Positions 8,991 through 55,785 of a DNA stretch of 64,000 bases are shown piece by piece. This DNA is from Phycisphaerales bacterium (lineage in GTDB: Bacteria > Planctomycetota > Phycisphaerae > Phycisphaerales > SM1A02). How positions within the stretch are numbered: the stretch's first letter is position 1; each line of letters begins with the position of its first letter. Under the pieces are notes generated by a model. That model was not told where the DNA came from and did not search any database. It worked only from the letters and a program-made list of their open reading frames with translations. Made by a program: the position numbers and the translations under genes. The stretch lies in the NCBI GenBank assembly GCA_029260575.1, contig JAJDDB010000016.1, positions 124,001 through 188,000 of the forward strand, in the 5' to 3' direction.

Positions 8991-9009
8991 AGGGTAGCCG
9001 GGACCCTAC

Positions 9010-10215: not shown

Positions 10216-10307
10216 GGTATGAGCGGGTGGATTTGCAGTTTCGCTGGGACGGCGTACCCTTCGCGGTTCACCCTACGCCTCTGACTCGCACTTGCCGCTG
10301 TCTGATT

Positions 10308-11216: not shown

Positions 11217-11325
11217 CTCGGCTTTGCTGCTGATTCTCCATTACTTCTGACCTGTGACTGACTCGCTTGCAGGTTTCGGTGAAGCCACTTGTTGCGGCGT
11301 TGGCAGTGGTCGTACTATTGGCGTG

Positions 11326-12240
11326 ATGACCTTTGCGTCCGAAACAGCGGTGAACGAACTTCCGGAACGCGAGAAGCGTCGACGCCGAGCCAAGTATCGG
11401 CGGGCGCGGGTGCGCCATTTTCTATTCACCCACGGACCGAACAAACTCAGCGGTGGGCGTGTCTTGCGTCGGCATGCTGCAGGTGACATCGTTGTCAATG
11501 AATTGGAAATAGCAACGCCACGCTGGCCGGCTGAGCTCGATGGACTGCGCATCGCGCATGTAAGCGACTTCCACCTTGGCGATCTGTTGCCGCTGGATCG
11601 CGCGCTCAACGTGGTTGAATTGATCGCAGCCAACGAGCCGGATTTTGTTGCGTGCACCGGTGACGTTGTGGACCTGCAACTGACGCGCGATGCCGGCGAG
11701 CTGCTGCAGGCGATGGCTTCGATCGGCGCACCGCTTGGCAGCGCGCTGGTTCTAGGCAATCATGATGAACTGCATTGTGGAGAAACGCTTGCAGGAATGG
11801 CTGTGGAAGTAGGCATGCTTGTCTTGTGTGACGAGGCGGCCCAGATATCCTGGAATGGATACCCCGTCGTGATTGCGGGAACGCGCTGGGCTCCGACAGT
11901 GGACAAGTGCGCCCGATCGGTAGATCTCGCGTGCGGCAGCGAAACACATCTGCTGCTTTCACACAATCCGCGTTCCTTCGATCAGGCTGCACGTTTGAAC
12001 GTGCCATTGACACTTGCCGGTCATACACACGGCGGGCAGATCGCGATGAAGAACAAGCCGGCTGCGAATCTGGCGATGACGCATCGTTATTCTGCAGGGA
12101 TCTTTGAACAAGGCGAAAGTCGTCTGTACGTCACGCCGGGCGTCGGGGCATGGTTCCCCCTTCGGGTAAACTGTCCGGCTGAAGTGGCAATAATCACGAT
12201 GCGCAGCATACCAACAGATGTGACCGACAATGCGGAGTGA
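11326..12240 (+). CDS. Calcineurin-like metallophosphoesterase (YkuE/YaeI type)
   Basis: About 304 residues. All metal-binding blocks of the family are visible in order: AHVSDFHLG, CTGDVVDL, LGNHDE, LLLSHNPRSFD and AGHTHGGQI. Members of this branch are usually membrane-associated phosphodiesterases such as UDP-diacylglucosamine or phospholipid esterases; the very basic N-terminus (EKRRRRAKYRRARVRH) may bind acidic lipids. GTG 11254 is an alternative upstream start. Substrate unproven. Confidence 0.87.
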   Translation: MTFASETAVNELPEREKRRRRAKYRRARVRHFLFTHGPNKLSGGRVLRRHAAGDIVVNELEIATPRWPAELDGLRIAHVSDFHLGDLLPLDRALNVVELIAANEPDFVACTGDVVDLQLTRDAGELLQAMASIGAPLGSALVLGNHDELHCGETLAGMAVEVGMLVLCDEAAQISWNGYPVVIAGTRWAPTVDKCARSVDLACGSETHLLLSHNPRSFDQAARLNVPLTLAGHTHGGQIAMKNKPAANLAMTHRYSAGIFEQGESRLYVTPGVGAWFPLRVNCPAEVAIITMRSIPTDVTDNAE

Positions 12241-12306
12241 ATTGCATCCGCGCAGCGCTTCGGCAGAGGACTTGATTGCTCATTTGAAGTCGGAGGATCG
12301 CATCTG

Positions 12307-13212
12307 GTGACGAACGACTGCAGAACTCTTCTTCTCGATGGTGCGACGGGCACAGAGCTTGGGCGGCGTGGTGTGGATATCACTTCAACTGCGTGGTCGG
12401 CCCGCGCAATTCGTGATGCGCCCGGAGTCCTGCAGGAGATTCACGAACAGTATCTGCACGCCGGCGCTGGCGCGATCACAGCCAACACATTTCGAACGCA
12501 TGAACGATCGGTAATTGCAAGCGATCTGAGCGGCGCAGCAAAACTGTTGACACGGGAAGCAGTGCAGATTGCCATAGCAGCACGTGACAATGTGCAACCG
12601 GCTGCGCTGGTGTTCGGATCTGTTGCCCCATTGGAAGATTGTTACGAACCGCACCTGGCGCCGAAATTTGATGTCTGCAAGGCTGAGCATGCACAGCAGA
12701 TCGAGCGCCTGCTCGATGCTGGTGTTGATCGCATCCTGATCGAAACGATAAACATCCAACATGAAGCGATGGCTGCAGCAGAAGCTGCCCGGGAGTACGC
12801 ACCCGGAAAATGGATGATCAGCTTTTGCACGCTTGCAGATGGGCCTCCGGGCACGCTGCTGAGCGGCCAGCCGGTCACCGATGTTCTGCCACAACTCTCA
12901 GACGCCGCGGCGGTGGGAATAAACTGCGTGGCTGCGCCTGCGATTGCGCCGCATGTGCGATTGTTGCGCGCCCTGCTGCCAGATACTGTCGAAGTCATGG
13001 CGTACGGCAATATCGGCCGGGTTGAGCCGTCTGGACAATGGGTGCAGACCGATGCTGTCAGTCCGGATCGATATGCGATGTACGCCCAGCAGTGGCGCGA
13101 TGCCGGTGCGACAATCATCGGCGGGTGCTGCGGCACTTCCCCGGAAACGCTCGCGGCAGTAGCACGGCAACTTGGACCGACACGTCTCGAAGGGGAGAAT
13201 TCCAGGGCATGA
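12307..13212 (+). CDS. Homocysteine S-methyltransferase family protein
   Basis: A 301-residue Pfam S-methyl_trans barrel. It begins LLLDGATGTELGRRG and has the zinc ligands Cys in GINC (about 207) and the paired Cys in GGCCGTSPET near the C-terminus. The family transfers methyl groups to homocysteine to form methionine; without attached cobalamin or folate domains it resembles the MmuM/BHMT-like stand-alone type. GTG 12307 follows a GGAGG-like site. Its TGA overlaps the ATG of the S41 peptidase gene, so the two are translationally coupled, although no functional link is obvious. Confidence 0.85.
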   Translation: MTNDCRTLLLDGATGTELGRRGVDITSTAWSARAIRDAPGVLQEIHEQYLHAGAGAITANTFRTHERSVIASDLSGAAKLLTREAVQIAIAARDNVQPAALVFGSVAPLEDCYEPHLAPKFDVCKAEHAQQIERLLDAGVDRILIETINIQHEAMAAAEAAREYAPGKWMISFCTLADGPPGTLLSGQPVTDVLPQLSDAAAVGINCVAAPAIAPHVRLLRALLPDTVEVMAYGNIGRVEPSGQWVQTDAVSPDRYAMYAQQWRDAGATIIGGCCGTSPETLAAVARQLGPTRLEGENSRA

Positions 13213-15032
13213 TGCAAGAAACACCTCCAAGAGTGCTCCACAAGATTGTGATGATGGCCGCATTTGTCTGCGTTCTGTGTGCTGCAGCGCACGGCGCAAC
13301 CGCGCAGGACGAGTACCCGAAAGTCAGTCCGTTTGAAGCGGTTCGTTTCGCCGACGATTTGATCCTCGTGCAGGTCAACGGTTCGTGGTATGAACTGCTC
13401 AAGATCAACGATGCCGATGCGTTCGATGTGCTTGAACATTGTCACGAAACGTATGGTGCTCTCGCTACCAAGAGGTTTACTGAAGATCTCGTGCAGGTCT
13501 TGACTGAATACGGCCACCGACCCAAGGACCGCGTTGATCTGACCATTCGCAAACTTGTTGAACGCACACCGACAATCCTCAAAGATGTCATCATGACCAA
13601 ACAGAATCGACAGAAGATTCTGGAAGCCAATCGCAGAAATGCCTCGAAATCGAATCAGCGAGATGTTCAGATTACCCGCGGGCAGGCAGCAAAGGACATT
13701 GCATTTCTGCGCCTGAGGCTTGAGAACCAATACGCGTATCTACACCATGCAAACGTTGATGTTCACGGAATGCTCGATGCACTTGCCGATTCGCTCGGCG
13801 AGTCTGTAAACGTCGCCGAGTTTGCAATTTCTCTTCAGAAGTTCCTGTCGCGTTTTGGCGATGGTCATACCCGCGTGAATGGCTCGGCCGGGTATTTACC
13901 GCAGGGGTATCTGCCGTTTGCTGTAGAGCTTGCTGATACGCGAATCGTTGCGTTTGACCCGAACACGAAGACACTTCTACGCGATGATGCTCCGTATGTC
14001 GCCGCGATCGACGGCATAGAGATTGATAGCTGGCTGAAGGCGGCGGGAACATTGGTTGCTGATGGCTCCGCGAGCCTGCAAACATCTGACGCCGTTCGCC
14101 GACTTGTGTTCCTCAACTGGTTGCGCAACCAACTCGACCTTCCAATCACGACTGATGTTACTGTGCAACTTGCTGGTCGCATGCATATGGGTCTTGAAAC
14201 GGTCACTTTGCCGGTCGCTGATGAACCGATCATTGCCCGCAAATCACCCTTGACACAATACGAATTCGTAAACGGTGACATGCTCGTGCTGCGGATCCCA
14301 TCGTTCTCCACGCGCAATGCACCCAAGCATGTGGAGCGTTGCATCGAGGCAATGGAACAGGCCAGGACTGCGAGTGGTTTGATAATCGATGTGCGTGGCA
14401 ATTCCGGCGGCAGTCGTCGAGCATTGAAATATCTCCTGCCGTATTTCATGAACCCTGACGAACCGCCGGTCGTTGTCAATACTGCGAAATATCGATTAGC
14501 CGAAGAATTCGAACAGGATCATCTGGCGAACCGTTTTCTGCATCGACCTGATGCGCCGCACTGGACAGACGATGAACGGGCCGCGATCAAGGAATTCGCA
14601 GCGACATTTGAACCGCAGTGGCAGCCGCCATCCGAATTTTTCAGCGACTGGCATTACATGGTTGTGCGTCAAACTGCGCACGCCGATGTATACCACTTCA
14701 CGAAGCCGGTCGTAATTCTGATGGATCGTGAATGCTTCAGCGCGACCGACATCTTTCTGGGGGCGTTCAAGGGCCGCGAGAACGTAACATTACTTGGCAC
14801 TCCCAGCGGCGGCGGCAGCGGCAGATCAATAACAGTACGCCTCCCACACAGCGGCATTCGTCTTTCGCTGTCATCGATGGCGTCGTTTCAACCGAATGGC
14901 AAGCTGTACGATGGCAACGGCATCGAGCCGGATATTGTCATCGAACCGACTGCCAGTGATGTGCTGGGCCGCACAGACACGCAAATGGAAGCTGCCCTTC
15001 GCATTCTCTTGCAGCACACCAAACGTCGCTAA
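13209..15032 (+). CDS. S41 family (C-terminal processing) peptidase, secreted
   Basis: 607 residues with a signal peptide (AAFVCVLCAAAHGATAQ). An N-terminal helical region (about 35-155) precedes a region with FGDGHTRVNG and a PDZ-like part, then the tail-specific protease core: SGLIIDVRGNSGGSRRALKYLLP and the nucleophile Ser511 in RECFSATDIFLG; GTPSGGGSGRS follows. The ATG overlaps the preceding methyltransferase stop (ATGA). Probably periplasmic protein turnover; it resembles the large secreted S41 proteins of planctomycetes and bacteroidetes more than classical CtpA. Confidence 0.82.
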   Translation: MMQETPPRVLHKIVMMAAFVCVLCAAAHGATAQDEYPKVSPFEAVRFADDLILVQVNGSWYELLKINDADAFDVLEHCHETYGALATKRFTEDLVQVLTEYGHRPKDRVDLTIRKLVERTPTILKDVIMTKQNRQKILEANRRNASKSNQRDVQITRGQAAKDIAFLRLRLENQYAYLHHANVDVHGMLDALADSLGESVNVAEFAISLQKFLSRFGDGHTRVNGSAGYLPQGYLPFAVELADTRIVAFDPNTKTLLRDDAPYVAAIDGIEIDSWLKAAGTLVADGSASLQTSDAVRRLVFLNWLRNQLDLPITTDVTVQLAGRMHMGLETVTLPVADEPIIARKSPLTQYEFVNGDMLVLRIPSFSTRNAPKHVERCIEAMEQARTASGLIIDVRGNSGGSRRALKYLLPYFMNPDEPPVVVNTAKYRLAEEFEQDHLANRFLHRPDAPHWTDDERAAIKEFAATFEPQWQPPSEFFSDWHYMVVRQTAHADVYHFTKPVVILMDRECFSATDIFLGAFKGRENVTLLGTPSGGGSGRSITVRLPHSGIRLSLSSMASFQPNGKLYDGNGIEPDIVIEPTASDVLGRTDTQMEAALRILLQHTKRR

Positions 15033-15037
15033 CCGCA

Positions 15038-15685
15038 TTAATGTAAATCTGCGGATGCGCTGCGGCGCAGATGTTCGGCCATCTGCCGGGCGGCATTGCC
15101 ACGATGCGAACGTGCGTTCTTGTCCTGCGGCGTCAGCTGCGCGCTGGTGCAATTCATATCCGGCAGGCAAAGCAACGGGTCGTAACCAAAGCCGTTGTCG
15201 CCTGTCGGAGTGTCGGTGATGACGCCCTCAAATGTGCCGCGCGATTCAGCAAGAACGTTGCCATCTGCATCAGCAAGGCACAGCGCGCATACGAAGCGCG
15301 CGGTTTTCTGCGCAGCGGGAACAGACACAAGCAGTCGGAGGAGTTTGCGGTTGTTTGCCGCGTCACGATCCGTGCGCTGCAGGCCGTAGAAGCTGTCGAT
15401 TTCATCGGAAGCAAAACGTCCGGAATGCACGCCGGGCGCACCGCCAAGTGCGTCAACCTCAAGGCCGGAATCATCTGCGATACACGTGCAACCGAGTTGC
15501 TGGGCGTAGTAGATGGCTTTGATGCGAGCGTTGGCTTCGAAGGTTTCGCCGTCCTCAACCGGTTCCTGGGGAACTACGTCATACTCATCCAGGCTGATCA
15601 CTTCAATGTTCAGAGGCACGAGAATGGCCTGCACTTCTTCGATCTTGTGCGGATTGGATGTCGCCAAGAGCAACTGCATCGGCAA
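15038..15685 (-). CDS. rdgB: Non-canonical purine NTP pyrophosphatase (RdgB/HAM1)
   Basis: Hydrolyses dITP, ITP and XTP to the monophosphates, keeping deaminated purines out of nucleic acids; cytosolic homodimer. 215 residues. Signatures: LATSNPHKIEEVQ at the N-terminus, DDSGLEVDALGGAPGVHSGRF around 72-92, GDNGFGYDPL and SHRGNA near the end. It is preceded two bases upstream by a small zinc-ribbon membrane protein gene on the same strand, giving a probable queF - zinc ribbon - rdgB transcription unit. Confidence 0.94.
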   Translation of the reverse strand: MPMQLLLATSNPHKIEEVQAILVPLNIEVISLDEYDVVPQEPVEDGETFEANARIKAIYYAQQLGCTCIADDSGLEVDALGGAPGVHSGRFASDEIDSFYGLQRTDRDAANNRKLLRLLVSVPAAQKTARFVCALCLADADGNVLAESRGTFEGVITDTPTGDNGFGYDPLLCLPDMNCTSAQLTPQDKNARSHRGNAARQMAEHLRRSASADLH

Positions 15686-15687
15686 AC

Positions 15688-15969
15688 CTAGACATGTTGA
15701 ATAAAGATCAGAAGTGCAGCAAAGGCTGGACCTGCAAGAATGAATGCCATGCCAATCCAGAAATAGTTTCGATCACGCCGAAGACGGTCCAGATCGCGAA
15801 TAAAGCTGCCGCACTCGGGGCAATTCGTCGTCATTTTCGACAGCCTTCGAAGATCGTACCCGCACGTGACGCACTCGTTGGGATTGCGAACCACTTTGAT
15901 CGAGAGCGAAAGCATCGAAATCCCTGCGATCAACATCACCGTTCCGATCAAGAGCGGCATCGTCACCAT
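15688..15969 (-). CDS. Small zinc-ribbon membrane protein
   Basis: About 93 residues from ATG 15969: one N-terminal helix (MPLLIGTVMLIAGISMLSL), a cytosolic zinc ribbon CVTCGYDL...NCPECGS, then a second helix at the C-terminus. The same arrangement, ribbon next to membrane helices with a 'C-x-x-C-x-Y-x-L' knuckle, recurs in the gene at 47935. The longer frame upstream would overlap queF and is not used. Function unknown. Confidence 0.72.
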   Translation of the reverse strand: MVTMPLLIGTVMLIAGISMLSLSIKVVRNPNECVTCGYDLRRLSKMTTNCPECGSFIRDLDRLRRDRNYFWIGMAFILAGPAFAALLIFIQHV

Positions 15970-15991
15970 GATCACATTCCAGAGAGCGTAT

Positions 15992-16360
15992 CTACCCGCA
16001 GCGCCATTGCTCGGGCACATCGCCGTGTGTTGCAATAATGCGTGAGCTGATGCCGCCGCGCCCGCGCCATTCGGTGATGATCTGCATCCACGCCGGCTGC
16101 ATTGAAGTTGCCAAATCATCTCGAATGCTGTTGGTCACCGCCTCGTAGAAAATGCCATCGTTGCGATACGACTGGTAATACAGCTTGAGGCTCTTGAGCT
16201 CGACGCATGTGGCGGCTGGCTGGTAGCGCAGGATGATTGAACCAAAGTCGGGGTGGCCAGTCTTCGGACAGACACTGGTGAATTCATCAGCGATGTGTTC
16301 GATGACGAACGGAGAATCAACCGGAGTAGGGAATACTTCAAGGAGCGCTGCATCAGCCAT
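15992..16360 (-). CDS. queF: NADPH-dependent preQ0 reductase (QueF, unimodular)
   Basis: Reduces 7-cyano-7-deazaguanine to preQ1 in queuosine biosynthesis for tRNA wobble modification. 122 residues, the short Bacillus-type form. The catalytic Cys31 is in TSVCPKTGHPDFG (Asp38 the proton donor) and Glu54 is in the NADPH/substrate motif CVELKSLKLYYQSYRNDG (53-69). No other queuosine genes are in the window. Confidence 0.94.
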   Translation of the reverse strand: MADAALLEVFPTPVDSPFVIEHIADEFTSVCPKTGHPDFGSIILRYQPAATCVELKSLKLYYQSYRNDGIFYEAVTNSIRDDLATSMQPAWMQIITEWRGRGGISSRIIATHGDVPEQWRCG

Positions 16361-16443
16361 AACGGACGATGATAGCGGCGGAGGCGCAGGTGATCTTGCT
16401 ATGTCATCCGAGTCTTCTTCGAAGACTTCTCAGGTGCGGCTTC

Positions 16444-17475
16444 TTACTGCATGCTGAAGTTGCTCATGAGCGCGATCAGGCGCGGCTGCGAGCGGTTGAT
16501 TCGCAGTGATCTGCGGAATGCATCCCGGGATTCAGACCACGCTTCACTATCGCTTTTCTTACTCATCAGCCATGAATTGAGCGCGTTGATGCCCACGCCG
16601 TTGAGTGACGGCCAGTGACTGGAATCACGGCGAACACCGTTGCGATATGCTTCGATGGACTTGTCAAATGCGCCCAGACGGAAGTACGCCCAGCCGAGAC
16701 GTTCGTATGCGTTGGCGGACGGCTGAATGCGGATGAGATTCTCCGCAGTGTTGACCGTTTCCTGATACCGGTGCTCCTTGGCGAGTACGTTGACCAGATT
16801 GAGCATGATCGGAGCGGGATCGTCTTCGATGAGTTCGATCGCAACGATGTATTCATCAATCGCATCAGCATTGCGTTCGAGCTGTTCATAGATCGCGCCC
16901 AGGTTTACGCGTGCAGATCCATTGTTGGGCTCCAGTTCGACTGCCTTTTCCGCAAACACGAGCGCGCTGCGGGTTTGCCCGAGCTGAAGATACGTGGTGG
17001 CAATGTTGAGGTTGGCGCCCGGGCTTTCCGGATCGATGGTCAGCGCCCGAAGGTATGCTTTGGCAGCATCAGTAAATCGGCCGATCATCTGCAGTGCCAG
17101 GCCGTGGCCGTACTGGGCATCATAATTGCGAGGCTCGAGCTTGGCTGCACGTTCATACACTGGCACAGCGAGATCGAATTCCTTCTGAATCATGTAGATG
17201 TCGCCGATACCGAGGTATGCGGTCGTGATCGTCGGGTTTTCAGCAAGGATGGATCTGAACAACTCCAGCGCCTGTTGATAGTCGCCGGATTCTGTAGCCT
17301 GCTCAGCTAGTTCAATGCGCTGTTGTTGTTGTTCGCTCGGCAGGCCGGGCGTGGTGGTGATGCGCGGTCGCTTTCGGGTGCGCTGCTGTTCGATGAGTTC
17401 GCAGCCGGTCAGACCCGCACCAAGCAGAGCGAGTGCGCATACAAGCGGGATGAGTCTGAGCAATCGACGGGTCAT
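16444..17475 (-). CDS. TPR-repeat lipoprotein
   Basis: 343 residues from ATG 17475, which has GAGGAG ahead of it. A type II signal ends in LLGAGLTGC. After a Gln-rich linker there are about six to seven tetratricopeptide repeats spanning 50-280, for example YQQALELFRSILAENPTITTAYLGIGDIY and AYERLGWAYFRLGAFDKSIEAYRNG. TPR arrays act as protein-docking scaffolds; anchored lipoproteins of this type often organise envelope complexes. No partner is evident from the neighbours (queF cluster downstream, nfo upstream). Confidence 0.82.
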   Translation of the reverse strand: MTRRLLRLIPLVCALALLGAGLTGCELIEQQRTRKRPRITTTPGLPSEQQQQRIELAEQATESGDYQQALELFRSILAENPTITTAYLGIGDIYMIQKEFDLAVPVYERAAKLEPRNYDAQYGHGLALQMIGRFTDAAKAYLRALTIDPESPGANLNIATTYLQLGQTRSALVFAEKAVELEPNNGSARVNLGAIYEQLERNADAIDEYIVAIELIEDDPAPIMLNLVNVLAKEHRYQETVNTAENLIRIQPSANAYERLGWAYFRLGAFDKSIEAYRNGVRRDSSHWPSLNGVGINALNSWLMSKKSDSEAWSESRDAFRRSLRINRSQPRLIALMSNFSMQ

Positions 17476-17589
17476 CGTTTCGGGGATCTCCTCGGTCGGG
17501 TTCCCGGTCATGGCCAGTACGCCCGCACAGCGAACCTGGGCAATCTTCAGTAGACAATCGGTACTGATAGCAGTGGCCCGTGATGCGGT

Positions 17590-18537
17590 TCATCGGCTCG
17601 ACACGGGCTTGTGGATGAGCCGTTTGAGCCGACGGATGTTCATGACATCCCACGAAAGGCCCTTTTCGGTCTTTCCTTTGGGCGTTTCAAGAATCTTGGG
17701 TACGCGGGCAAGGCTTGGATGGTTCACGATGGCCCGGAAACACGATTTGCCACATTCCCCATCGCCGATATGAGCGTGCCGATCACGCCGGGACCCGACC
17801 GCACCTACGGAGTCATTGATATGGATCACATGAAGGTCCGAGAATCCCAGTGTTTTCTTCCAGTTGCGCATGACAGCATCCGCTTTGGCGTCCGTTGTCA
17901 TGTCATATCCAGCCGCAGTGATGTGACATGTATCCATGCAATAGCCGACGCGTTCCTGCTGGTTTACGCCTGCCTTAATGAATCCCAGGTGATGAAATGC
18001 GTATCCAAGGTTAGTACCGGAGCCGACGGTGGTTTCCAGCGCGGTAACGGTGCGATAGCCTGGCAAATCGCTGTGAATACGATCGAGGGCTTTGACAATC
18101 CTCTTGAGACCGGCCAGTTCGTCTTTGTTCGGCGAGGCATTGAGATCGTTGGGCTCGCCGGGCTTTCTGGTCTGGCCAAGATGCGCTCCCGGGTGCGACA
18201 CACAGACAGGAATGTGTAATGCCTCACATCGTTCCAACTCGACACGCTGCAGGTTCAGCGATTTCTCCCACATCGCTTTGTCTGGCGATGCGAGGTTGAT
18301 CAGGTAGCTGTTGTGACTGACGGTGCGAATCGGCTGGCTGGATCGAGAATCGGGCTGATCCCATTTCATATCACGCAGCAGGCTCAGCCAGACTTCACGA
18401 GCATCGTCAGTCAATTCCGGCACACGCCACTGCTGCTGGTTCTTGGTGAATACCTGCACGCAGTCCATCTTGAGCTGCTGCGCTTCAGCAAGCGCGTTGG
18501 TCATTCCGCCGGCTATGGAAAGATGCGAACCAAACAT
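17590..18537 (-). CDS. nfo: Deoxyribonuclease IV (AP endonuclease 2 family)
   Basis: A zinc TIM-barrel enzyme cutting 5' of abasic sites in base-excision repair. About 315 residues, slightly longer than usual (280). Metal ligands are seen in the expected order: VSHNSYL, VSHPGAHLG, ALETTVGSG (Glu), GYCMDTCH (Asp, His), VIHINDS, DRHAHIGDG (Asp, His) and ILETPKG (Glu). It lies 25 bases downstream of tkt on the same strand, so the two may be co-transcribed. An upstream GTG at 18546 is an alternative start. Confidence 0.93.
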   Translation of the reverse strand: MFGSHLSIAGGMTNALAEAQQLKMDCVQVFTKNQQQWRVPELTDDAREVWLSLLRDMKWDQPDSRSSQPIRTVSHNSYLINLASPDKAMWEKSLNLQRVELERCEALHIPVCVSHPGAHLGQTRKPGEPNDLNASPNKDELAGLKRIVKALDRIHSDLPGYRTVTALETTVGSGTNLGYAFHHLGFIKAGVNQQERVGYCMDTCHITAAGYDMTTDAKADAVMRNWKKTLGFSDLHVIHINDSVGAVGSRRDRHAHIGDGECGKSCFRAIVNHPSLARVPKILETPKGKTEKGLSWDVMNIRRLKRLIHKPVSSR

Positions 18538-28372: not shown

Positions 28373-28446
28373 GGGCTAGTAGCTCAGCTGGCTAGAGCGC
28401 ACCCCTGATAAGGGTGAGGTCGGAGGTTCGAGTCCTCTCTGGCCCA
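28373..28446 (+). tRNA. tRNA-Ile (GAT)
   Basis: A 74-base cloverleaf: acceptor GGGCTAG pairs with CTGGCCC, D-arm AGCTC...GAGC, anticodon arm ACCCC-TGATAAG-GGGT with anticodon GAT, T-arm GGAGG-TTCGAGT-CCTCT (first pairs seen directly). Discriminator A; CCA is not encoded. It is a single gene outside an rRNA operon. The phage-like gene block begins 274 bases downstream, and tRNA genes are common phage integration sites. Confidence 0.95.
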
Positions 28447-28719: not shown

Positions 28720-30249
28720 GTGGCGTATGCGCTTGAACCGTTTGAATCGATCGGCCTTGACGAATCAATGCTCGAACTGTTGATCAGTCAGCACACTTCG
28801 CAGGCACTTCCCGAACTGTCGCGATTGTGGTGCTACTACCGCAACTCTCTTGCGGCTGCAACCGCATCAGGTGGATCAGCAGGCGCGCCGGCACAAGCTG
28901 CTGGACTTCCCAATCGATTGAAATCTCCAGCATCCACGAGTGACGGCCAGACGACGCGCGAGGTTGTTGTCGAAAACGACATTGCTTGGCGGATTCACAC
29001 GCTCGTCGACTACATGTTCCCGCAGCCGCCCCGCCTCATCAGTACCGCCAGCGATCCGCAGATGCGCTCGGATATTGAGTTCATTTTGCAATCGATCATC
29101 GACGCCAACGGCGGAGCGAGTCTCTGGCATAACGCTGCACTGTTCGGATCGGTGTACGGCTGGGTGGATTTTCTTGTCAACACGCACAACTTGCACGCAG
29201 TCAATCGACAGAAACTTGCATCTTCATCCCAGGGTGATCGTTCCGGGGAGGCCCCGTCTAAACCCCTTGCTGCACTCGTGGCCGAACTGGTCAGGCCAAA
29301 CGTAGTGATTGAGACGGTGGAGGCCCCCCGGGCGGTCGCGCTGGTGAATCGAACCGATTATCGCAAGCTCGATGCGTATGTCCTGCACTATCGCCAGTTC
29401 ATCAATGATGTCCAGCGAGCCGGCTGGCTGAGCAGACTGGCGCGCGGCATCGGTGGAATTCCATCCACTGGCGCACAACGTGCGACGATCGAAGTCACCG
29501 AAGTCTATTCCGACAGCCACTACCAACGCTACGAAAACCAAGTGTTGGTGGATGAGCGCGCCAATCGCCTGGGACGTTTGCCGATTGTGCATGTTCAGAA
29601 TCTGCCGCAGCCACTGCGCTGGGAAGGCCTCAGCGATGTCGAACCGTTGATCCCGTTGCAGGATGAATTGAACACCCGTCTCAGCGATCGCGCCAGCAGG
29701 GTCACCATGCAGAGTTTCCGCATGTGGCTCGGAAAGGGCATTGATGGATTTCTCGATCGGCCGGTCGGCCCCGGACAGATGTGGTTCACAGACAATCTTG
29801 ACGCAGCGATTGAAGCCTTCGGCGGCGATGCGGACAGCCCCAGCGAGCGCGCACATATCGAAGAGTTGCGCGAAGCAATGGACAAAGCCTCCGGCGTGAC
29901 GCCCGCAGCAGCGGGGCATATACGCGCCAAGGTCGGCAACCTCTCATCCGAAAACGCGCTGCGGATCTCATTGATGGGAACCATCGCCAAGACCAAACGC
30001 AAACGCATCACCTATGGCGCGGGCATCAGCACTCTGTGCGAATTGATCCTGCATGCGCTGGATGTGCACAACATCTTCCGGACCCAGCCAAGTGATCGGC
30101 ATGTTGACGTGACGTGGTCCGACCCGCTTCCGCCGGATGAATCACGACGCATTCATGATGCACTGGATAAGGCGCAGCTCGGCGTTCCGCTGGAGGTTCT
30201 CCGCGCTGAACTGGGCTACCCCGACACGGACATTCCAAACGCCGCATGA
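28720..30249 (+). CDS. Phage portal protein
   Basis: 509 residues, no signal peptide. The layout fits SPP1 gp6-type portals: N-terminal WRIHTLVDYMFPQPPRL (about 87-105), a wing with YGWVDF, the YSDSHYQRYENQVLVDERANRLGRLPIVH strand region, and the helical GLSDVEPLIPLQDELNTRLSDRASRV segment near 305-335. C-terminal SDPLPPDESRRIHDALDKAQLGV is typical of portals. GTG 28720 has GGGAG upstream. First gene of an intact head-gene block; portals form the dodecameric DNA gate of a capsid. Confidence 0.82.
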   Translation: MAYALEPFESIGLDESMLELLISQHTSQALPELSRLWCYYRNSLAAATASGGSAGAPAQAAGLPNRLKSPASTSDGQTTREVVVENDIAWRIHTLVDYMFPQPPRLISTASDPQMRSDIEFILQSIIDANGGASLWHNAALFGSVYGWVDFLVNTHNLHAVNRQKLASSSQGDRSGEAPSKPLAALVAELVRPNVVIETVEAPRAVALVNRTDYRKLDAYVLHYRQFINDVQRAGWLSRLARGIGGIPSTGAQRATIEVTEVYSDSHYQRYENQVLVDERANRLGRLPIVHVQNLPQPLRWEGLSDVEPLIPLQDELNTRLSDRASRVTMQSFRMWLGKGIDGFLDRPVGPGQMWFTDNLDAAIEAFGGDADSPSERAHIEELREAMDKASGVTPAAAGHIRAKVGNLSSENALRISLMGTIAKTKRKRITYGAGISTLCELILHALDVHNIFRTQPSDRHVDVTWSDPLPPDESRRIHDALDKAQLGVPLEVLRAELGYPDTDIPNAA

Positions 30250-30315
30250 CGCAACGTGCCGTTTCGCACGCAAACCACACGCACTTGGCAGCAGCCATCG
30301 AACAGGAGTTACCAG

Positions 30316-30891
30316 ATGACCGAGCACGGTACAGCGATTGACGAACAACAGCAGACCGAGCAAACCGAACACGAGTTGCCCGAGACTCTGGACAGCGAAG
30401 AACTACCGAGCAGACCGCAGGAACCAACCGAGCGACTGGTGCCGGTTTCGGAGGCCCGGCGGTATCGCAGACGAGCGCAAACAGCTGAGCAACGTGTGCG
30501 CGAGCTTGAATCGGATCTCCACGAGGGCCAGGAGCAACTGGCGCAGCGCGAGCAGCAGCTTGACGAATTGGCGACCAAGCGAGCTATTGACATCGCGCTG
30601 CAGGAACACGACGTGGTCGATGCGGAAGTTGCAACGCTGCTGATTCAGCAGCAGCTCGAAGATGCATGTGATGGAGATGTCGAGCAGGCGGTGTGCGAAC
30701 TTCGGCGGCGCAAGCCGTTTCTGTTTCGACCGCAGCGCACGCAATCGTTGACAACAGCGCTTGGGCCGTACACCGAGCAACGAAACGGACACGGTGGAGG
30801 TCGGATGGAACACGCCGCTGAAGAAGCGATCCGCTCAGGCCGGCGCGGCGATTTACTGCAGTACCTGCGATTGCGCCGCAGCCAGAAGTAA
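30316..30891 (+). CDS. Scaffold-like coiled-coil protein
   Basis: 191 residues from ATG 30316 (AGGAG seven bases upstream). An acidic Gln/Glu-rich N-terminus (1-45) is followed by a coiled coil (about 55-110, RRRAQTAEQRVRELESDL and EQLAQREQQLDELATKRAI) and a basic C-terminal part with RRRKPFLFRPQ. Position between portal and capsid genes and composition are those of phage scaffolding proteins, which shape the procapsid. No sequence family is recognised directly. Confidence 0.62.
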   Translation: MTEHGTAIDEQQQTEQTEHELPETLDSEELPSRPQEPTERLVPVSEARRYRRRAQTAEQRVRELESDLHEGQEQLAQREQQLDELATKRAIDIALQEHDVVDAEVATLLIQQQLEDACDGDVEQAVCELRRRKPFLFRPQRTQSLTTALGPYTEQRNGHGGGRMEHAAEEAIRSGRRGDLLQYLRLRRSQK

Positions 30892-30965
30892 TTGAGCGAT
30901 CACGCTTCGACAGCGAAACACTGGAATTTGAACATCAACGACACAATTCATTTGGAGCATACTTC

Positions 30966-32138
30966 ATGACGTTCACAGGAAAAACAACATTTGCCGGCGG
31001 CGCGAGCCTGCCTGAAATCGCTGAGGATGTCAGCGACATCATTGGTATTGTTAGTCCGTTCGAGACAATGCTTCTGGATCACCTTGGTAACCCTCTGCGG
31101 GCAGCAACAAGCACCGTTCACGAGTGGCTGGAAGATTCACTGTTGCCCAATACGGACACGATAAATGATCAGAGTATCTCGAATCCGACCACGGAGACAA
31201 GCTTTGACGTCAGCAACGGCGATTACTTCCAGGTCGGCGATCAGATCATGCTCGACAATGATGTCGAAGTCATGCTCGTCACCGCTGTCACCGACGATAC
31301 GTTGTCTGTTGTGCGACAGTACGGCGGCACTACTGCTGCATCACTTGTCGACAGCGCTGTTATCAACATCATCGGCAACGCAGCTCTGGAAGGCAGCGAT
31401 GCGCCGGAATCCCGATTCACTTCACGCGTCCGCAAGCAGAATTACACACAGATCTTCACCGCATCTATCGAAGTGTCCGGCAGTCAGTTGGCTGCACAGA
31501 ATATCGGTGTGGACGATGAAATGGACTACCAGAAGCAGGAACGCATCCGCGAGCTGCTGCGCGATCTGGAAAACTGCGTCATCAACGGTGTAGCGGCAAC
31601 AGCCAACCCGCAAGGTACATCGTCTGTCCGCAGAACGATGCGCGGCGTCATGGGGTCGATTGTGACGAACATTTATGAGCCGGGCAGCGATCCGATTCCC
31701 GATGGCGGCGGTGGCAGCAGTGATCTGTTGACCGAAGAAGTGCTCAACTCGGCACTGCGCGCAATCTGGGAGCAAAGCTCCGGCAGCGTAGACACGATTG
31801 TCTGCAGCGGCGCGCAGAAACGCCAAATTAATAACTTCATCTCGTCATCGCAGCGGTTTGCAGATGACAACAATCGATTCGGGTCGCTGGTGGATATCTA
31901 CGAATCGGACTTCGGCGTCTGCCGGGTTGTCCTGAGCCGATGGATGCCGAGCGAGTCGCTGTTGTTGCTGGATTCCAGCCGAATCAACGTGCTGCCACTG
32001 GCTGGACGCAGCTTCCACTTCAAGCCGCTGGCGACATCCGGCGACTACGAATCGGGGCAGGTTATTGGTGAATACACACTTGAGATGCGCAATGAAAACG
32101 CACACGGCGTGCTTACGAATCTCGGCCTGACCGGCTGA
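30966..32138 (+). CDS. Major capsid protein, SU10/DUF5309 type (HK97 fold)
   Basis: 390 residues. N-terminus with EIAEDVSDIIGIVSPFETMLLDHLG, a 'SPxETP'-like start shared by DUF5309 capsid proteins, then an inserted beta domain (about 70-130, with GDQIMLDNDVEVMLVTAV), ESRFTSRVRKQNYTQIF, QKQERIRELLRDLENCVINGV, and a C-terminal P-domain-like stretch with RINVLPLAGRSFHFKPLA. No premature stops or frame breaks. It follows the scaffold-like gene by 74 bases. Confidence 0.8.
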   Translation: MTFTGKTTFAGGASLPEIAEDVSDIIGIVSPFETMLLDHLGNPLRAATSTVHEWLEDSLLPNTDTINDQSISNPTTETSFDVSNGDYFQVGDQIMLDNDVEVMLVTAVTDDTLSVVRQYGGTTAASLVDSAVINIIGNAALEGSDAPESRFTSRVRKQNYTQIFTASIEVSGSQLAAQNIGVDDEMDYQKQERIRELLRDLENCVINGVAATANPQGTSSVRRTMRGVMGSIVTNIYEPGSDPIPDGGGGSSDLLTEEVLNSALRAIWEQSSGSVDTIVCSGAQKRQINNFISSSQRFADDNNRFGSLVDIYESDFGVCRVVLSRWMPSESLLLLDSSRINVLPLAGRSFHFKPLATSGDYESGQVIGEYTLEMRNENAHGVLTNLGLTG

Positions 32139-32224
32139 TCGAACTCTTTCCTCCCTCCCGTCACCGGTTGGCGGCCAGACGGTCGCCGATCGGTTTTTCT
32201 CGCCTGAAAATTAAGGAGCCGATT

Positions 32225-32860
32225 GTGGCGCTGATCAATGACACCGATCTCTTGCTCTTGGAACCAACACTCTTCACCGACGCCAGTACCGCCGCTGTGT
32301 TGTTGGAAGCTGCTGATGACGCGACTCTCTCCGGCTCGGTGCTTATCAGCTCCACAGCGGAATTCAACACGGTTGGAGTGAACGCCGGCCATGTCGTCGT
32401 CGTCAACGGCGAACCGCTGGAAATTACCGGGGCGATCGGCAACACGACGCTGTCGGTGACCAAACGCCGCAGCCCCGGATCATCGATCATCAAACCGGGC
32501 AGCGGCAGCGGTCTTACGTACGAGGTTCTTACGTTCAGCCCGACCATAGATGCTTCTGAACGATGGCTTGATCGTGTGCTCGGGCTTGATGCGAACCATC
32601 CAACGCAGCCGTTGACAAGCGCGAACGTGCAGAATTACGAGGAATTCGCATCGCTGGTCGCGCTGCACTGCATCGCGTCGGCATTCTCGCAGGTCAGCGC
32701 AGCAACTCCTGAGGACGACTCGCTACGCGAACGCGCAGAGTTGTATGAACGCCTTGATTTTGAGATGCGCCAACACCTCGTAGCGTCCGTTGATGTCAAC
32801 GGCAATGGCGTCGTTGACGAGCGACGCCGGCTGGCTGTTGGAACCTGGGTGCGCCTGTGA
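32225..32860 (+). CDS. Phage head-tail connector-like protein
   Basis: 211 residues from GTG 32225 (AAGGAG seven bases upstream). The N-terminal 100 residues are beta-rich with repeated Asp/Thr/Ser (DTDLLLLEPTLFTDASTA). The C-terminal half is helical (NVQNYEEFASLVALHCIASAF, LRERAELYERLDFEMRQHL), a pattern of neck or completion proteins that sit on the portal. DVNGNGVVDERRRL near the C-terminus resembles a calcium-binding loop. Assignment rests on position and secondary structure only. Confidence 0.5.
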   Translation: MALINDTDLLLLEPTLFTDASTAAVLLEAADDATLSGSVLISSTAEFNTVGVNAGHVVVVNGEPLEITGAIGNTTLSVTKRRSPGSSIIKPGSGSGLTYEVLTFSPTIDASERWLDRVLGLDANHPTQPLTSANVQNYEEFASLVALHCIASAFSQVSAATPEDDSLRERAELYERLDFEMRQHLVASVDVNGNGVVDERRRLAVGTWVRL

Positions 32861-32892
32861 GTTAATCGTTGATTGAAAGGAGTATTCGAGCC

Positions 32893-33177
32893 GTGGACCC
32901 GAATTCGATCGAAGCCATGACAGCAATCTTGACGCAATTCGGCGCTGCCGGCCTGATCGGGCTGCTGTGGGTTCTGGAGCGCCGCACAGCAATGCAGCGC
33001 GATCGTCAACTCCAGGAGGCACACGACAAGCTCATGGCGCAGCGTCAGGCAACCGAGTCACTGCTCCAGATCGTCAAAGACAATACTGCAGCGATGAAGT
33101 CGCTGGAGTATGCGCAACGACGGCTCATCGACCACCTCAACCGGGCTGCTGCCAACGATCACGCGAGTGCTGCGTAA
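32893..33177 (+). CDS. Small one-helix coiled-coil protein, holin-like
   Basis: 94 residues. One hydrophobic helix near the N-terminus (ILTQFGAAGLIGLLWVLE) is followed by a charged coiled coil (MQRDRQLQEAHDKLMAQRQATESL). This is the plan of BhlA/UviB-like phage holins. GTG 32893 is preferred because AAGGAG lies just before; TTG 32869 is an upstream option. Last gene of the phage-like block. A non-phage membrane protein of this shape cannot be excluded. Confidence 0.55.
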   Translation: MDPNSIEAMTAILTQFGAAGLIGLLWVLERRTAMQRDRQLQEAHDKLMAQRQATESLLQIVKDNTAAMKSLEYAQRRLIDHLNRAAANDHASAA

Positions 33178-33235: not shown

Positions 33236-33859
33236 ATGCGTAAGAGCCGGCAAACGTTGCTGTTGATCGTGGGGCTCACATCCTCGATCGGATGCGGCAC
33301 AGGGTGCGATCAGTTGCAGCCGACTGTTGATCGTCCGCAGACACAGCCGGACCCGATTGCAGACAGCGGCGACGTAGGCTGGCCATACTGGCCGGTGTCA
33401 ATGTCAATTCATGCGCTGACGAGGATCACTATTGACCGCGGCGAGAATGCACCTGTACTCGAAGCACGTGTTGAATTTACCGACGCGGAGGGCGCGACAA
33501 CCAAGGCCACCGGCCAGGTGCTTCTGGAACTTACCGATGACGTGGCCTTCGCTGACGCTGCGCCAGCCAGCGAAGTCTGGTCTATCGATCTTCGAGCCCT
33601 TCGAAAAAACGCGACGCATTTTGACGAGGTCACAAGAACGTACCTTTTCAAGTTGCGACTGAAACCCGAGCAGCAGTGGCATCGACCCAGGTTGCGCGTG
33701 CAATTTCAGGGTGCTGATGGAGCGGTCCTGACAGATCGCAGCTCAGTTCGCCCGTACGTGATTGATGCTGGACAGGACGACAAGACACCCGGCGATGTGC
33801 TGTCCGATGAACCGGATGCAGTCAATCCGGCTCATGCAGATGCTCTGCCTGCAGATTGA
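33236..33859 (+). CDS. Lipoprotein, unrecognised
   Basis: 207 residues with signal peptide and lipobox (LTSSIGCGTGC). The middle is beta-rich (LTRITIDRGENAPVLEARVEFTD, TYLFKLRLKPEQQWHRPRLRVQF), suggesting an immunoglobulin-like fold; the C-terminal 40 residues are acidic and Pro/Asp rich. It follows the holin-like gene by 58 bases but its composition is that of a host envelope protein. No family recognised. Confidence 0.72.
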   Translation: MRKSRQTLLLIVGLTSSIGCGTGCDQLQPTVDRPQTQPDPIADSGDVGWPYWPVSMSIHALTRITIDRGENAPVLEARVEFTDAEGATTKATGQVLLELTDDVAFADAAPASEVWSIDLRALRKNATHFDEVTRTYLFKLRLKPEQQWHRPRLRVQFQGADGAVLTDRSSVRPYVIDAGQDDKTPGDVLSDEPDAVNPAHADALPAD

Positions 33860-34125
33860 TCATCCGAAGCGTCCACAGCATCGATCACCGTGAACTGATC
33901 GAGATTCAGGATGACGATTTCGCCATCATCCAGTCGCAGTTCCAGGCGATCGAGCCAGAGTTGATCGTCCTTTGCATGGGCGAACCACGAACCGGTCTTG
34001 GCCTGCCTGAACCTGGTGATGACACCCTCAGTGACGTTGGTCCACGAGCCGTCCCTGCGGGGGATCTGCTGCACAACGCGAACGCGCGTTCCCGGTTGAT
34101 AAAGCGATGTCTGAAGGGCAATCAT
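33832..34125 (-). CDS. Small beta-rich protein, unrecognised
   Basis: 97 residues from ATG 34125. QPGTRVRVVQQIPRRDGSWTNVTEGVI suggests an SH3-like barrel binding nucleic acid or ribosome (KOW-like), followed by KDDQLWLDRLELRLDDGEIVILNLDQF. The final residues overlap the end of the convergent lipoprotein gene by 28 bases. A longer frame upstream would overlap the M16 gene end and is not used. Function unknown. Confidence 0.65.
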   Translation of the reverse strand: MIALQTSLYQPGTRVRVVQQIPRRDGSWTNVTEGVITRFRQAKTGSWFAHAKDDQLWLDRLELRLDDGEIVILNLDQFTVIDAVDASDDQSAGRASA

Positions 34126-34199
34126 TACGGCAAGACTGTAGCACGGAACGCCTGTATCAAACAATACTGCCAGCCAAGCAGGTAGCTCGGCAATTCGTC

Positions 34200-35456
34200 T
34201 CAACCTGCCGAAGCCGGGGCCATGTGCTCCGGGACATTCAGAGCTTGTGGTCCGATCGACGCAATTGTGAACGGCCCGAACTGTCGTTCTGCCAAATATG
34301 AATTCAACTGGTCCAGCGAGATTTTTTCGATCGCATCCACTCGATCTTTGAGACTGCGCGCGTGGCCGAGCCTGAATTGATCCTGGCCCAGCGCAGCAGC
34401 GCGGGCTTGTGTGGATTCGCCTTGCATGACCAGCCGGCTCTTGAGCTTGGTTATTGCACGATCGAACTCCGTAGCTGTTGCACCCTCATTCATCCGGTGA
34501 ATCTGCTCGACTGTCACGTCAAGGGTCTCCTGCGCCCGCTCGGGTGTCGTGCCTGCGTATACAGATACAACACCATCATCGCGAGCGCCGCTATAGCTGG
34601 CTCCGACGGAATAGCACAGCGAGCGCCGCTGTCGAACTTCCGTAAATAATCGTCCGCTGGTTCCGCCACTGAGCACAGACGTCGCCAGATGTTCGAGTGT
34701 CGAATTCGGATCCGGCTCAGCGGGAGCGCCATAGGCGAGGCCGATGTGTACTTGTGCGGTTTCCTGTTCGATGGGCTCATATCCTCCCAGTGGTTCCTGC
34801 TGATACTGCGGCTCGATTACATCGCCCGTGAACCCGCTGAACAGTGTGTTGAACTGCGCTGCGAGCTCGTGTGGATCAACATGACCCGCGGCTGCGATGA
34901 TCGACCCGCCGGGGCGGAATTGCGATCTGCGCACCTCTTGCAACTGTTGAAGCGTCGCTTCTTCCAGGACACTTCGCTCGCCATAACCGTTGCGGTTGAA
35001 AGGCGCGGGGCGATGTCTGCGGCGCAACTCAAGCATCACCTGGTGCTGCGGATCATCGCTGAGCGAATCAAGTGATTGCAGACACAGGCTGCGGATGGAT
35101 GTCAACGCCTCTTCCGGAAGCTGCGGATTGAGAATCAGCGATACCAAGACCGGCAACGCTCGTTCACGTTTGTCGCCAAGCATCGTGGCGGAAAGCTGCA
35201 GGTGATGTGTGCCCACATGCCCTGACCTGCGTACCCCGAGCCGATCAAACGTGTCTGAGAGTTCACGGCTGCTGAGTTCACCTGCCCCGCGGAAGATGTA
35301 CTCGGATAACAGTGTCGAAGCACCAATGAGCTGATCCGGGTCGGTTGCGGAACCTGCGGGCACCAACCAATTCATCGCAAGTGACGCCACGCTGTCAATC
35401 CGCTCGACGAGCAACGGGATACCGCAATCAAGTCCGATACTGACAATTCTGCTCAT
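34200..35456 (-). CDS. M16 (insulinase) family protein without the zinc motif
   Basis: 418 residues from ATG 35456. The fold is clear from YGAPAEPDPNSTLEHLATSVLSGGTSGRLFTEVRQRRSLCYSVGASY, the C-terminal half with the Arg/Tyr pair of M16 peptidases. Where HxxEH should stand the protein reads LLSEYIFRGAGELSS, so zinc binding and catalysis are lost. M16 proteins commonly occur as an active/inactive pair; the active partner is not in the window. No signal peptide, so probably cytosolic. Confidence 0.82.
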   Translation of the reverse strand: MSRIVSIGLDCGIPLLVERIDSVASLAMNWLVPAGSATDPDQLIGASTLLSEYIFRGAGELSSRELSDTFDRLGVRRSGHVGTHHLQLSATMLGDKRERALPVLVSLILNPQLPEEALTSIRSLCLQSLDSLSDDPQHQVMLELRRRHRPAPFNRNGYGERSVLEEATLQQLQEVRRSQFRPGGSIIAAAGHVDPHELAAQFNTLFSGFTGDVIEPQYQQEPLGGYEPIEQETAQVHIGLAYGAPAEPDPNSTLEHLATSVLSGGTSGRLFTEVRQRRSLCYSVGASYSGARDDGVVSVYAGTTPERAQETLDVTVEQIHRMNEGATATEFDRAITKLKSRLVMQGESTQARAAALGQDQFRLGHARSLKDRVDAIEKISLDQLNSYLAERQFGPFTIASIGPQALNVPEHMAPASAG

Positions 35457-39442: not shown

Positions 39443-39641
39443 TCATGCTCGTTCGCGTGCCGAGAAGGGTATTCTCGGACACTCGCGACATACGACGCGC
39501 AACTTATGCCGAGTAGACAAGTTAGAAATTGTTGTGTATAAATCGCAGTGCGCCTCCGGTACTGTGCCGATAGGCTCAAGTTTTTCGTTTCGTCACGGAT
39601 TGGCGAAACGGCAGTGATTGAATCGGCCAAGGAAGGTCCCG

Positions 39642-40505
39642 ATGCCACTTGCACCTGCTGCTGCACGCGCGCACCGCTCACGCGACGAATCGCGCCAAAC
39701 CAATCGAACTCGACCGTCCACAATTCAACTGCAGATCGCTGAGGTGTGGCGACAGTACAAACGCAATCCCACGCGTGACTGTCGCGATCAACTGATCGAG
39801 TACTACATGAAAGTGCATGTGCGCCGCATTGCCGAGCGCATGCACTCGTCTTTGCCCAAGCAGGTGGATATCGACGACCTTATTCAGCAGGGATACCTCG
39901 GACTGGTTGAATCAATCGAACGATTTGATCCGACGCGCAACGTGAAGTTCGAGACTTTCTCCGGCAGGCGAATCTTCGGTGCTATGCGCGACTATCTGCG
40001 CAGTATCGACCCCATGCCCCGGCTCAGTCGTATCCGCGAAAAGAAGATCCAGTCCGTCACCGAACGATTCCGCAAGGAGTTTGGCCGCGAACCCGGTGAT
40101 GCTGAACTATGCAGAGAACTGGACCTGCCCGAACCGCGCTTCCGCAGAATGATGGGCAGCGACCGTGCGCCGAACATGGTGCATTTCAACAGCGCTCGCT
40201 CAGACTCTGATGACATGGATGACTCTGACGGCATGCGCTCGTTCGAAGATCTTCGAGGTTCCACTCCGCATGTTCGTGCTGAACACAAGGATCTTCTGAA
40301 ATGGGTCTGCTCCGGCTTCGGCAGACGCGATCGGTTGATTATCGTGCTCTACTACTACGAGCGCATGACCATGAAAGAGATTGGCAGATCACTGGGCATC
40401 AGCGAGTCACGCGTCAGCCAGCGGCTCGATTCCATTCTGCAGTGTCTGCGATCGCGGTTGTGCCACATGCAGGCAGCGGAACAGGAATTCTTCTTCTCTG
40501 TCTGA
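39642..40505 (+). CDS. RNA polymerase sigma factor, FliA/WhiG-like
   Basis: 287 residues. After a 25-residue basic tail, region 2 has QVDIDDLIQQGYLGLVESIERFDPTRNVKFETFSGRRIFGAMRDYLRSID, the sigma-28 hallmark. Region 3 follows with SVTERFRKEFGREPGDAELCREL, and region 4 with RDRLIIVLYYYERMTMKEIGRSLGISESRVSQRLDSIL. GGAAGG precedes ATG 39642. Such factors drive motility or developmental genes; no flagellar gene or anti-sigma factor (FlgM) lies nearby. Confidence 0.88.
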   Translation: MPLAPAAARAHRSRDESRQTNRTRPSTIQLQIAEVWRQYKRNPTRDCRDQLIEYYMKVHVRRIAERMHSSLPKQVDIDDLIQQGYLGLVESIERFDPTRNVKFETFSGRRIFGAMRDYLRSIDPMPRLSRIREKKIQSVTERFRKEFGREPGDAELCRELDLPEPRFRRMMGSDRAPNMVHFNSARSDSDDMDDSDGMRSFEDLRGSTPHVRAEHKDLLKWVCSGFGRRDRLIIVLYYYERMTMKEIGRSLGISESRVSQRLDSILQCLRSRLCHMQAAEQEFFFSV

Positions 40506-55527: not shown

Positions 55528-55785
55528 ATGACGGATTACAACTCCGGGGTACCGCGAGTGTGGGCCCCGGAGTTCTCTCTTTTACACATCTTATCCAACA
55601 CCCGATTTCAAGAACGTGATCGCTACAAGCTGCTCATCGAGTCGCTGCAGCAGTATCACTACCCGCCGGATCAGCACGAAGACACCCAGCCGGTCAAGGA
55701 TGGCAACGACCACGCAGCAGATGCGCTGCGGTACATGATTGTGAATCATAATCGACGCGGCGGCGTGGAAGTGCGGTGGTATTGA
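55528..55785 (+). pseudogene. C-terminal remnant of a phage terminase large subunit
   Basis: 85 residues. RDRYKLLIESLQQYHYPP then DGNDHAADALRYMIVNHNRRGG matches the end of the terminase nuclease domain, whose last acidic ligand sits in the 'DHAxDALRY' motif. The ATPase and most of the nuclease (over 300 residues) are missing, so the fragment cannot be functional. It starts five bases after a host gene and ends by a TGATG overlap with another short frame. It may once have belonged with the head genes at 28.7-33.2 kb. Confidence 0.62.

Follow-up and report, generated by a model that had tools for sequence, protein, structure and literature searches.

A phage-derived head block of the Phycisphaerae, probably part of a vertically inherited gene-transfer-agent-like system whose packaging motor appears deleted in one genome

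Here we describe a compact block of phage head genes in a 64,000-nucleotide stretch of a Phycisphaerales genome (C16:124001-188000, referred to as the window; genome of 4.1 Mb in 41 contigs, 95.3% complete). The block is probably one part of a phage-derived, vertically inherited and independently domesticated system of the Phycisphaerae that resembles gene transfer agents and that has lost its motor in the window genome. Relatives carry the same head genes and, in a separate locus, a divergent large terminase gene (TerL); the trees of capsid and TerL share most of their splits with that of the host, and the head genes of relatives are under purifying selection.

Results

A preliminary description of the window, made from the sequence alone, had listed five head genes, and all five open reading frames (ORFs) were found on one strand without internal stops (Table 1). 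Its portal and SU10-type capsid assignments were borne out by profile searches, as was the scaffold at a score below cut-off, whereas the "connector" and "holin" found no convincing match in Pfam or PHROGs. A conserved lipoprotein-like gene behind the five, a member of the block in relatives, had been overlooked. Of 61 relatives 29 have the capsid gene, as do 132 of 298 genomes of the class Phycisphaerae, mostly as a single copy; nearly full-length matches are 51-70% identical, and some genomes hold further, distant copies at 27-36%. Named genomes were also scanned, which gave 250 matching stretches, 196 of them relatives, and the best 80 were retained. The named relatives with this capsid are nearly all metagenome-assembled genomes (MAGs) labelled Phycisphaerales, Phycisphaeraceae, Phycisphaerae or Planctomycetota, labels that point to a planctomycete host, most likely a member of the class.

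From 151 loci, including the window, we obtained 131 non-redundant ones with a capsid match, 90 of them well flanked, with at least 3.5 kb before and at least 8.5 kb after the capsid gene. Among these 90, the portal was found in 87, scaffold and adaptor in 83 each; 75 loci combine the three. Some of the missing calls, if not all, are broken loci or genes that fall under the thresholds. Because this gene order recurs in relatives, the block is more than a product of chance, and the comparison with related genomes proposed in the preliminary description shows that it is not confined to the window genome. The neighbors that recur beside the block within lineages belong to the host and encode phosphoglucomutase, amidohydrolases and a sigma-54 activator, joined in family f1 by an M16 peptidase.

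Capsid and rpoB trees built from 30 genomes have 17 of 27 splits in common, while 1000 tip shuffles gave at most 2. The TerL tree, which took in those genomes with an extracted TerL sequence (20 of the 30), agrees with rpoB in 13 of 17 splits and with the capsid in 12 of 17, and conflicts with neither at 95/95 support. The ratio of nonsynonymous to synonymous substitution rates (dN/dS, omega) was calculated by NG86 from 25 listed of 42 capsid pairs above 84% identity, with two saturated-dS pairs dropped for the capsid. Omega was 0.025-0.16 for the capsid, 0.05-0.30 for the portal, 0.055-0.27 for the adaptor and 0.10-0.40 for the scaffold, rough figures given that many dS values exceed 1. Thus the dN/dS check suggested earlier gave values far below one for close pairs of relatives; the window's species has no close pair and is in none of them. 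Vertical inheritance across the class and purifying selection in relatives together support the earlier proposals that the block is retained by selection and that it is gene-transfer-agent-like.

In INPHARED, 280 records matched the capsid, the top-ranked one at 31% identity, and 30 records matched the portal, the top-ranked one at 27%. A pattern scan of IMG/VR with the portal returned one contig in two pieces, IMGVR_UViG_3300031673_016560 (L166 / L447), which is filed as viral, holds the long host-type cluster PORTAL-SCAF-MCP-CONN-C6-C23-C8-C12 and is probably a host fragment. Two virus-like IMG/VR contigs (L164 and L165) encode capsids 58-59% identical to that of the window among other neighbors; one has a scaffold match and neither has a portal or adaptor. 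These capsids suggest exchange with, or descent from, phages.

Searches with general Pfam families had pointed to a system lacking any terminase: Terminase_6N matched 8 of 61 relatives and, in a further test, 7 of 17 genomes (15 of the 17 new), and we found TerL_ATPase in 4 of 24 genomes, GpA_ATPase in 2 of 24 and Terminase_3 in 1 of 24. That idea was overturned by a dedicated, divergent TerL, found through weak Terminase_6N matches 5-14 kb from the head locus in class members. Six of the seven ORFs fetched form one family of ~490 residues, 39-88% identical, with what we take to be Walker A, Walker-B-like and nuclease motifs; the seventh (L299), helicase-like by reading, is unrelated and was excluded. 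The family member scanned matched Terminase_6C, Terminase_6N and phrog_2, with PF17289 at 1.4e-8.

A profile built from the six sequences matched 30 of 61 relatives; among the 298 class genomes it matched 174, of which 149 at E<1e-50. At that threshold, TerL and capsid occur together in 123 of the 298 genomes, capsid only in 9 (the window genome being counted here), TerL only in 26 and neither in 140 (p 4e-45, which, like the p-values below, ignores shared ancestry). Three of the nine capsid-only genomes, including the window's, are at least 90% complete. The corresponding counts at E<1e-3 in the 61 genomes are 26, 3, 4 and 28 (p 6e-10), the window's remnant being scored as both; in family f1 they are 6, 2, 2 and 27 (p 3e-4), where the 6 include that remnant and the partial gene of genome G031. 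Terminase_6N, used as a control, shows no link to the capsid (6/23/2/30, p 0.14).

The distance between head and packaging loci ranges from ~5 kb in G068 to almost 1 Mb in G076, and 2 of the 131 head loci, fetched as stretches of up to ~21 kb, include TerL. The genes that precede TerL (Table 1) were counted among predicted genes in 25 TerL neighborhoods, so that the counts are lower bounds. They include an ATPase with similarity to PADLOC mad3 (9e-15), and the ATPase, GNAT and ParB-like genes together may recall phage DNA-modification cassettes. In G031 (L346), a one-contig genome that is 79% complete, the TerL match begins at profile position 159 and the Walker A region is missing, possibly a second loss of the motor in family f1 or else a sequencing error.

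In the window genome, the TerL profile has a single match, at window 55624-55782, covering the ~54 last codons of the gene. The terminases of seven relatives align with this remnant by tblastn at 53-63% identity over 42-55 residues and gave no convincing further TerL piece in the window. The terminase end that the preliminary description had seen 22 kb from the block is therefore real, and its statement that a terminase is absent holds for this genome's own copy; it does not hold for the system, given the divergent TerL in the second locus of relatives. The full terminase that it proposed to look for elsewhere in the genome was not found for the dedicated family, whereas contigs C25, C40 and C41 carry terminases of other families, perhaps those of prophages.

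Genes downstream of the remnant match genes downstream of the intact TerL of genome G036 (L344), and hidden Markov models (HMMs) of the other second-locus genes matched nothing near it; their sole match in the window, t2 at 39618-40502 (E 6e-5), is weak and lies away from the remnant. These findings suggest an in-place deletion of the packaging locus that left the remnant at the orthologous spot. With TerL reduced to its C-terminal end, the window copy has no working dedicated packaging motor and probably packages DNA no longer, although its head genes are intact.

Most relative-rate comparisons showed no significant excess of changes in the window lineage. The portal, compared with G036, gave a significant excess with outgroup G043 (44 against 25, chi2 5.2) and none with outgroup G051 (36 against 37); adaptor (38 against 23, chi2 3.7) and lipoprotein (25 against 14, chi2 3.1) show the same tendency without reaching significance, and the rpoB excess is instead in G012 (chi2 3.6 and 4.3). 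Since the head genes show no consistent acceleration, either the motor was lost recently or the heads are still selected.

Behind the adaptor, many relatives carry tail genes. At least two of the families C23, C8, C14 and C12 are present in 27 of the 90 well-flanked loci, only C11 and/or C6 in 35, and none of the six in 28, window included, which we call the short form. The predicted fold identifies C11 as a tail-tube protein: its AF2 model (pLDDT 82) has a siphophage tail tube as best PDB match (E 4.3e-4, TM 0.63), and the match ranked tenth is a chain of the native gene transfer agent virion (6tba). For C6 there is a weak match to Sipho_tail (0.011, below cut-off), and another long-form protein carries a LamG domain (4.7e-25). 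C14 (L101 14363-16504 and relatives) stands in the place of a fiber or adhesin and resembles the uncharacterized family TIGR03790 (1.5e-11, below cut-off).

Short forms were seen in families f1, f4, f6 (G053, G278), f9, f11, f13, f18, f20, f23 and f27, some of which also hold longer forms, so that tail genes were lost, or gained, on more than one occasion. The C6 marker was found in none of 13 f1 and f4 genomes tested; the search matched 4 of 23 genomes and missed G109, whose locus has a C6 match, and the absence is therefore only suggestive. HMMs of the relatives' tail genes matched nothing in the 64-kb window, and no integrase was found among the 21 window ORFs scanned with Pfam, the other ORFs being left unscanned. 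In line with the preliminary description, neither a tail nor an integrase gene was found beside the block.

The PDB relatives of the capsid are 9ny2, 9in6 (VP1 major capsid) and 7z45 (major head protein, further entry 7z4b). The AF2 model of the adaptor (pLDDT 86) had no Foldseek match at E<0.001. Among the 50 VIA-align matches listed for it, nine span nearly the whole chain, and each of the nine belongs to the portal, neck or tail of a phage (KHP30, crAss001, VP1, SU10 (two), Pa223, P1, T5 and Milano; Z 5.7-6.9), which is no more than suggestive of a head-tail adaptor. Profile searches of the PDB brought no significant match for the adaptor, tail-tube, hub and C6 alignments and reached only E 0.18 for the portal alignment. 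The fifth protein has no convincing family match in Pfam, PHROGs or NCBIfam; its one hydrophobic stretch is given by hydropathy and its coiled-coil-like part is a reading of the sequence, so "holin-like" is a label for a putative, unproven role. The gene of the small conserved protein O7, which has no family match, lies behind the block in family f1 and ahead of the portal gene in other families.

Table 1. Features of the head block and packaging remnant in the window, and of the second locus in relatives (E-values with family names)
Feature	Position	Strand	Remarks
tRNA-Ile(gat)	28373-28446		273 bases upstream of portal gene
Portal protein gene	28720..30249	+	509 aa; PF05133 E 1.8e-16, phrog_104 1.2e-20
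Scaffold-like gene	30256..30891	+	211 aa; PF06810 1.6e-4 (below Pfam cut-off); relatives' HMM 8.9e-54
SU10-type major capsid protein gene	30966..32138	+	390 aa; PF17236 SU10_MCP 3.4e-92
Probable head-tail adaptor, inserted beta domain	32168..32860	+	230 aa; 83/90 loci
Small holin-like gene	32869..33177	+	102 aa; 59/90 loci; one hydrophobic stretch, then coiled-coil-like
Lipoprotein-like sixth block gene	33236..33859	+	207 aa; 44/90 loci, position kept in relatives
O7, small conserved protein	33832-34203	-	in 30 head loci
C-terminal remnant of dedicated TerL	55618..55782	+	inside ORF 55528-55782; profile positions 434-487, E 1.6e-9
Gene downstream of remnant	57978-58886	+	59% identity to gene directly downstream of intact TerL, G036 (L344)
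Gene downstream of remnant	58930-59661	+	50% identity to gene directly downstream of intact TerL, G036 (L344)
Further genes	63052-63288, 63389-63949		also match genes downstream of TerL in G036 (L344)
GNAT protein	before TerL in relatives		at least 10/25; phrog_886 2e-11
Helix-turn-helix (HTH) protein	before TerL in relatives		at least 10/25
ABC-type ATPase	before TerL in relatives		at least 9/25; phrog_293 2e-25
ParB-like protein	before TerL in relatives		at least 6/25; phrog_723 4e-16
TerS-like proteins, two clusters	before TerL in relatives		at least 6/25 and at least 4/25; phrog_2538 0.017 and 4e-4
HTH+S24 repressor-like protein	before TerL in relatives		at least 5/25; PF00717 7e-16

The capsid gene itself is an integration target in some relatives. 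Elements of ~11.6 kb (L054, ~6248-17821) and ~6.9 kb (L239, ~5740-12597) interrupt it at codon ~57-60 in G009 and G061 (families f1 and f7), and each has a large serine recombinase (PF07508, PF00239) at its left end. The one in G009 carries further genes for a capsid-type protein (PF25209, 3e-40) and an AAA_25 protein and therefore looks like a phage or satellite. In G243, an element of ~10.9 kb (L240, ~4451-15345) with a similar capsid-type gene (PF25209, 3.8e-41) splits the capsid gene at a different site, codon ~324. Inversion or deletion has broken the gene in G048 (L056, codon ~60), G045 (L057, ~47) and G083 (L245, ~93); in such lineages the system decays.

In G030 (L038), a tRNA-Thr at bases 4-76 as fetched lies ~150 bases past the holin-like gene; among 30 loci it is the only tRNA so near the downstream side of the block.

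Discussion

Our results lead us to the following model. An ancestor of the Phycisphaerae (Planctomycetota) would have taken over a phage-derived particle system, which was passed on vertically from then on. Its first locus encodes portal, scaffold, capsid and adaptor, in many lineages a module of tail-tube, baseplate and fiber-like proteins, and then the small membrane protein and lipoprotein; the second encodes an S24-type repressor, an HTH protein, the ABC-type ATPase, GNAT and ParB-like proteins, a TerS-like protein and the divergent TerL. DNA damage or stress may relieve the repressor, upon which the scaffolded SU10-type head would assemble on the portal, the TerS/TerL motor would fill it with host DNA by headful packaging, and the adaptor would close it, with or without a tail. 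Particles would then be released to related cells and might transfer their DNA. In the window genome, where the second locus appears deleted down to the last ~54 codons of TerL, the head genes may still make shells.

Known gene transfer agents include the RcGTA type and the unrelated BaGTA, VSH-1, VTA and Dd1. Excerpts of the 2022 classification distinguish three independently exapted groups with an established genetic basis, and define such agents by proteins derived from tailed phages, particles with mostly random host DNA, full endogenization, often over several loci, a head too small for their own genes, vertical inheritance with host-congruent trees, and delivery of DNA to other cells (PMC9662315). 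Three of these six features were found by test in the Phycisphaerae: the portal, capsid and TerL families and the tail-tube fold of the long form come from tailed phages, head and packaging loci are separate on the chromosome, and inheritance is vertical apart from one supported capsid conflict. The separation of the two loci points towards a particle that could not fully package its own genes. We therefore regard the system as a candidate gene transfer agent and not as a member of that group.

The likeness to gene transfer agents extends to the purifying selection and to the fact that no replication or integration gene was recognized. In contrast, the present system belongs to a different phylum, its capsid is of the SU10 family PF17236, while the putative gene transfer agent capsids in excerpts of PMC8346489 belong to PF05065, its TerL is encoded apart from the head genes, together with ATPase, GNAT, ParB-like and S24-repressor genes, and many lineages have no tail genes. 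With SU10-like podophages and phage VP1 it shares the major capsid family and an adaptor model that aligns, weakly, with their portal-tail entries (Z 6.3-6.6); it differs from them in a portal of the SPP1_portal family, in a capsid at best ~31% identical to cultured-phage records and in having no phage genome around the block. A literature search, outside subscription papers and preprints, found no earlier report of such a system in Phycisphaerae, nor is it described in excerpts of PMC8346489, PMC8597652, PMC13055281, PMC12213060 and PMC12946183; the excerpts of PMC8597652 tabulate incomplete prophages with tail genes and without a capsid in Phycisphaerales MAGs.

Several points weigh against the proposed gene-transfer-agent-like role. 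Particles, packaged DNA and transfer are predictions from the genes. Every tail family looked for is missing from 28 of the 90 well-flanked loci, and we know of no tail-less gene transfer agent. The capsid gene is missing from 29 of 37 family f1 genomes and broken in several others, and hence is dispensable. Capsid and rpoB trees conflict once with support of at least 95 on both sides, and the p-values for the co-occurrence of TerL and capsid carry no correction for shared ancestry. Finally, terminases of other families are present in some genomes, with three in the window's own, and could in principle stand in for TerL. It is conceivable, if rather unlikely in our judgment, that through repeated shedding of its tail and, in the window lineage, of its motor, with portal, scaffold, capsid and adaptor left intact, the class-wide system has become a tail-less gene transfer agent or a phage head moving towards a new function that needs no motor.

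An explanation that we consider improbable is that the genes form a protein compartment or DNA-free shell, at least in short-form lineages and in the window genome. Encapsulin nanocompartments, which have a dedicated way of loading cargo, likewise consist of a virus-derived HK97-fold shell kept by the host, and the short form, the missing C6 marker in f1 and f4 (from the search that failed on G109) and the intact window head genes, with TerL gone and rates not consistently raised, would all fit such a shell. Yet portal, scaffold and adaptor are kept along with the capsid, the portal in 87 of the 90 loci; TerL accompanies the capsid in 123 of 132 genomes and is near full length in 10 of the 14 capsid-bearing f1 and f4 genomes, which have the short form wherever the block is readable; and the annotated recurrent neighbors are general host genes, with none recognized as cargo, though several of the small genes that recur there match no family. 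Still less probable are ordinary prophages, repeatedly acquired and now partly eroded, as the truncated TerL and missing tail of the window genome, the capsid genes broken in six relatives and the two virus-like contigs with related capsids might indicate. Prophages would hardly occupy two separate loci congruent with rpoB, mostly in one copy per genome, at low dN/dS and beside chromosomal neighbors shared within lineages, and the portal was found in no other virus in the INPHARED and IMG/VR scans.

The preliminary description had also raised a satellite, with the tRNA-Ile as its integration point. The position of this tRNA just upstream of the block, and that of the G030 tRNA-Thr on the opposite side, are what speaks for a mobile element, such as a phage satellite, inserted there. 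Against it, tRNA-Ile was found in none of 89 relatives' loci scanned, and any tRNA in 7 (30 loci plus 59 of 120 others, with a few contigs present twice); the window holds no repeat of the last 15-30 bases of the tRNA; no integrase or replication family is among the annotated genes that recur with the block; and the pattern of inheritance is that of the host. The tRNA plays no part in the system, and a satellite is very improbable.

According to excerpts of a 2024 review, homology, synteny or gene content cannot yet definitively locate new gene transfer agents (PMC11841831). The present data suggest a way to find others, namely a divergent terminase that co-occurs with a capsid, with the trees of both congruent with that of the host. 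A two-locus system spread over the class, with natural deletions of tail and motor and with elements that target its capsid gene, would offer a comparative system for asking what purpose such particles serve and which of their parts selection keeps.

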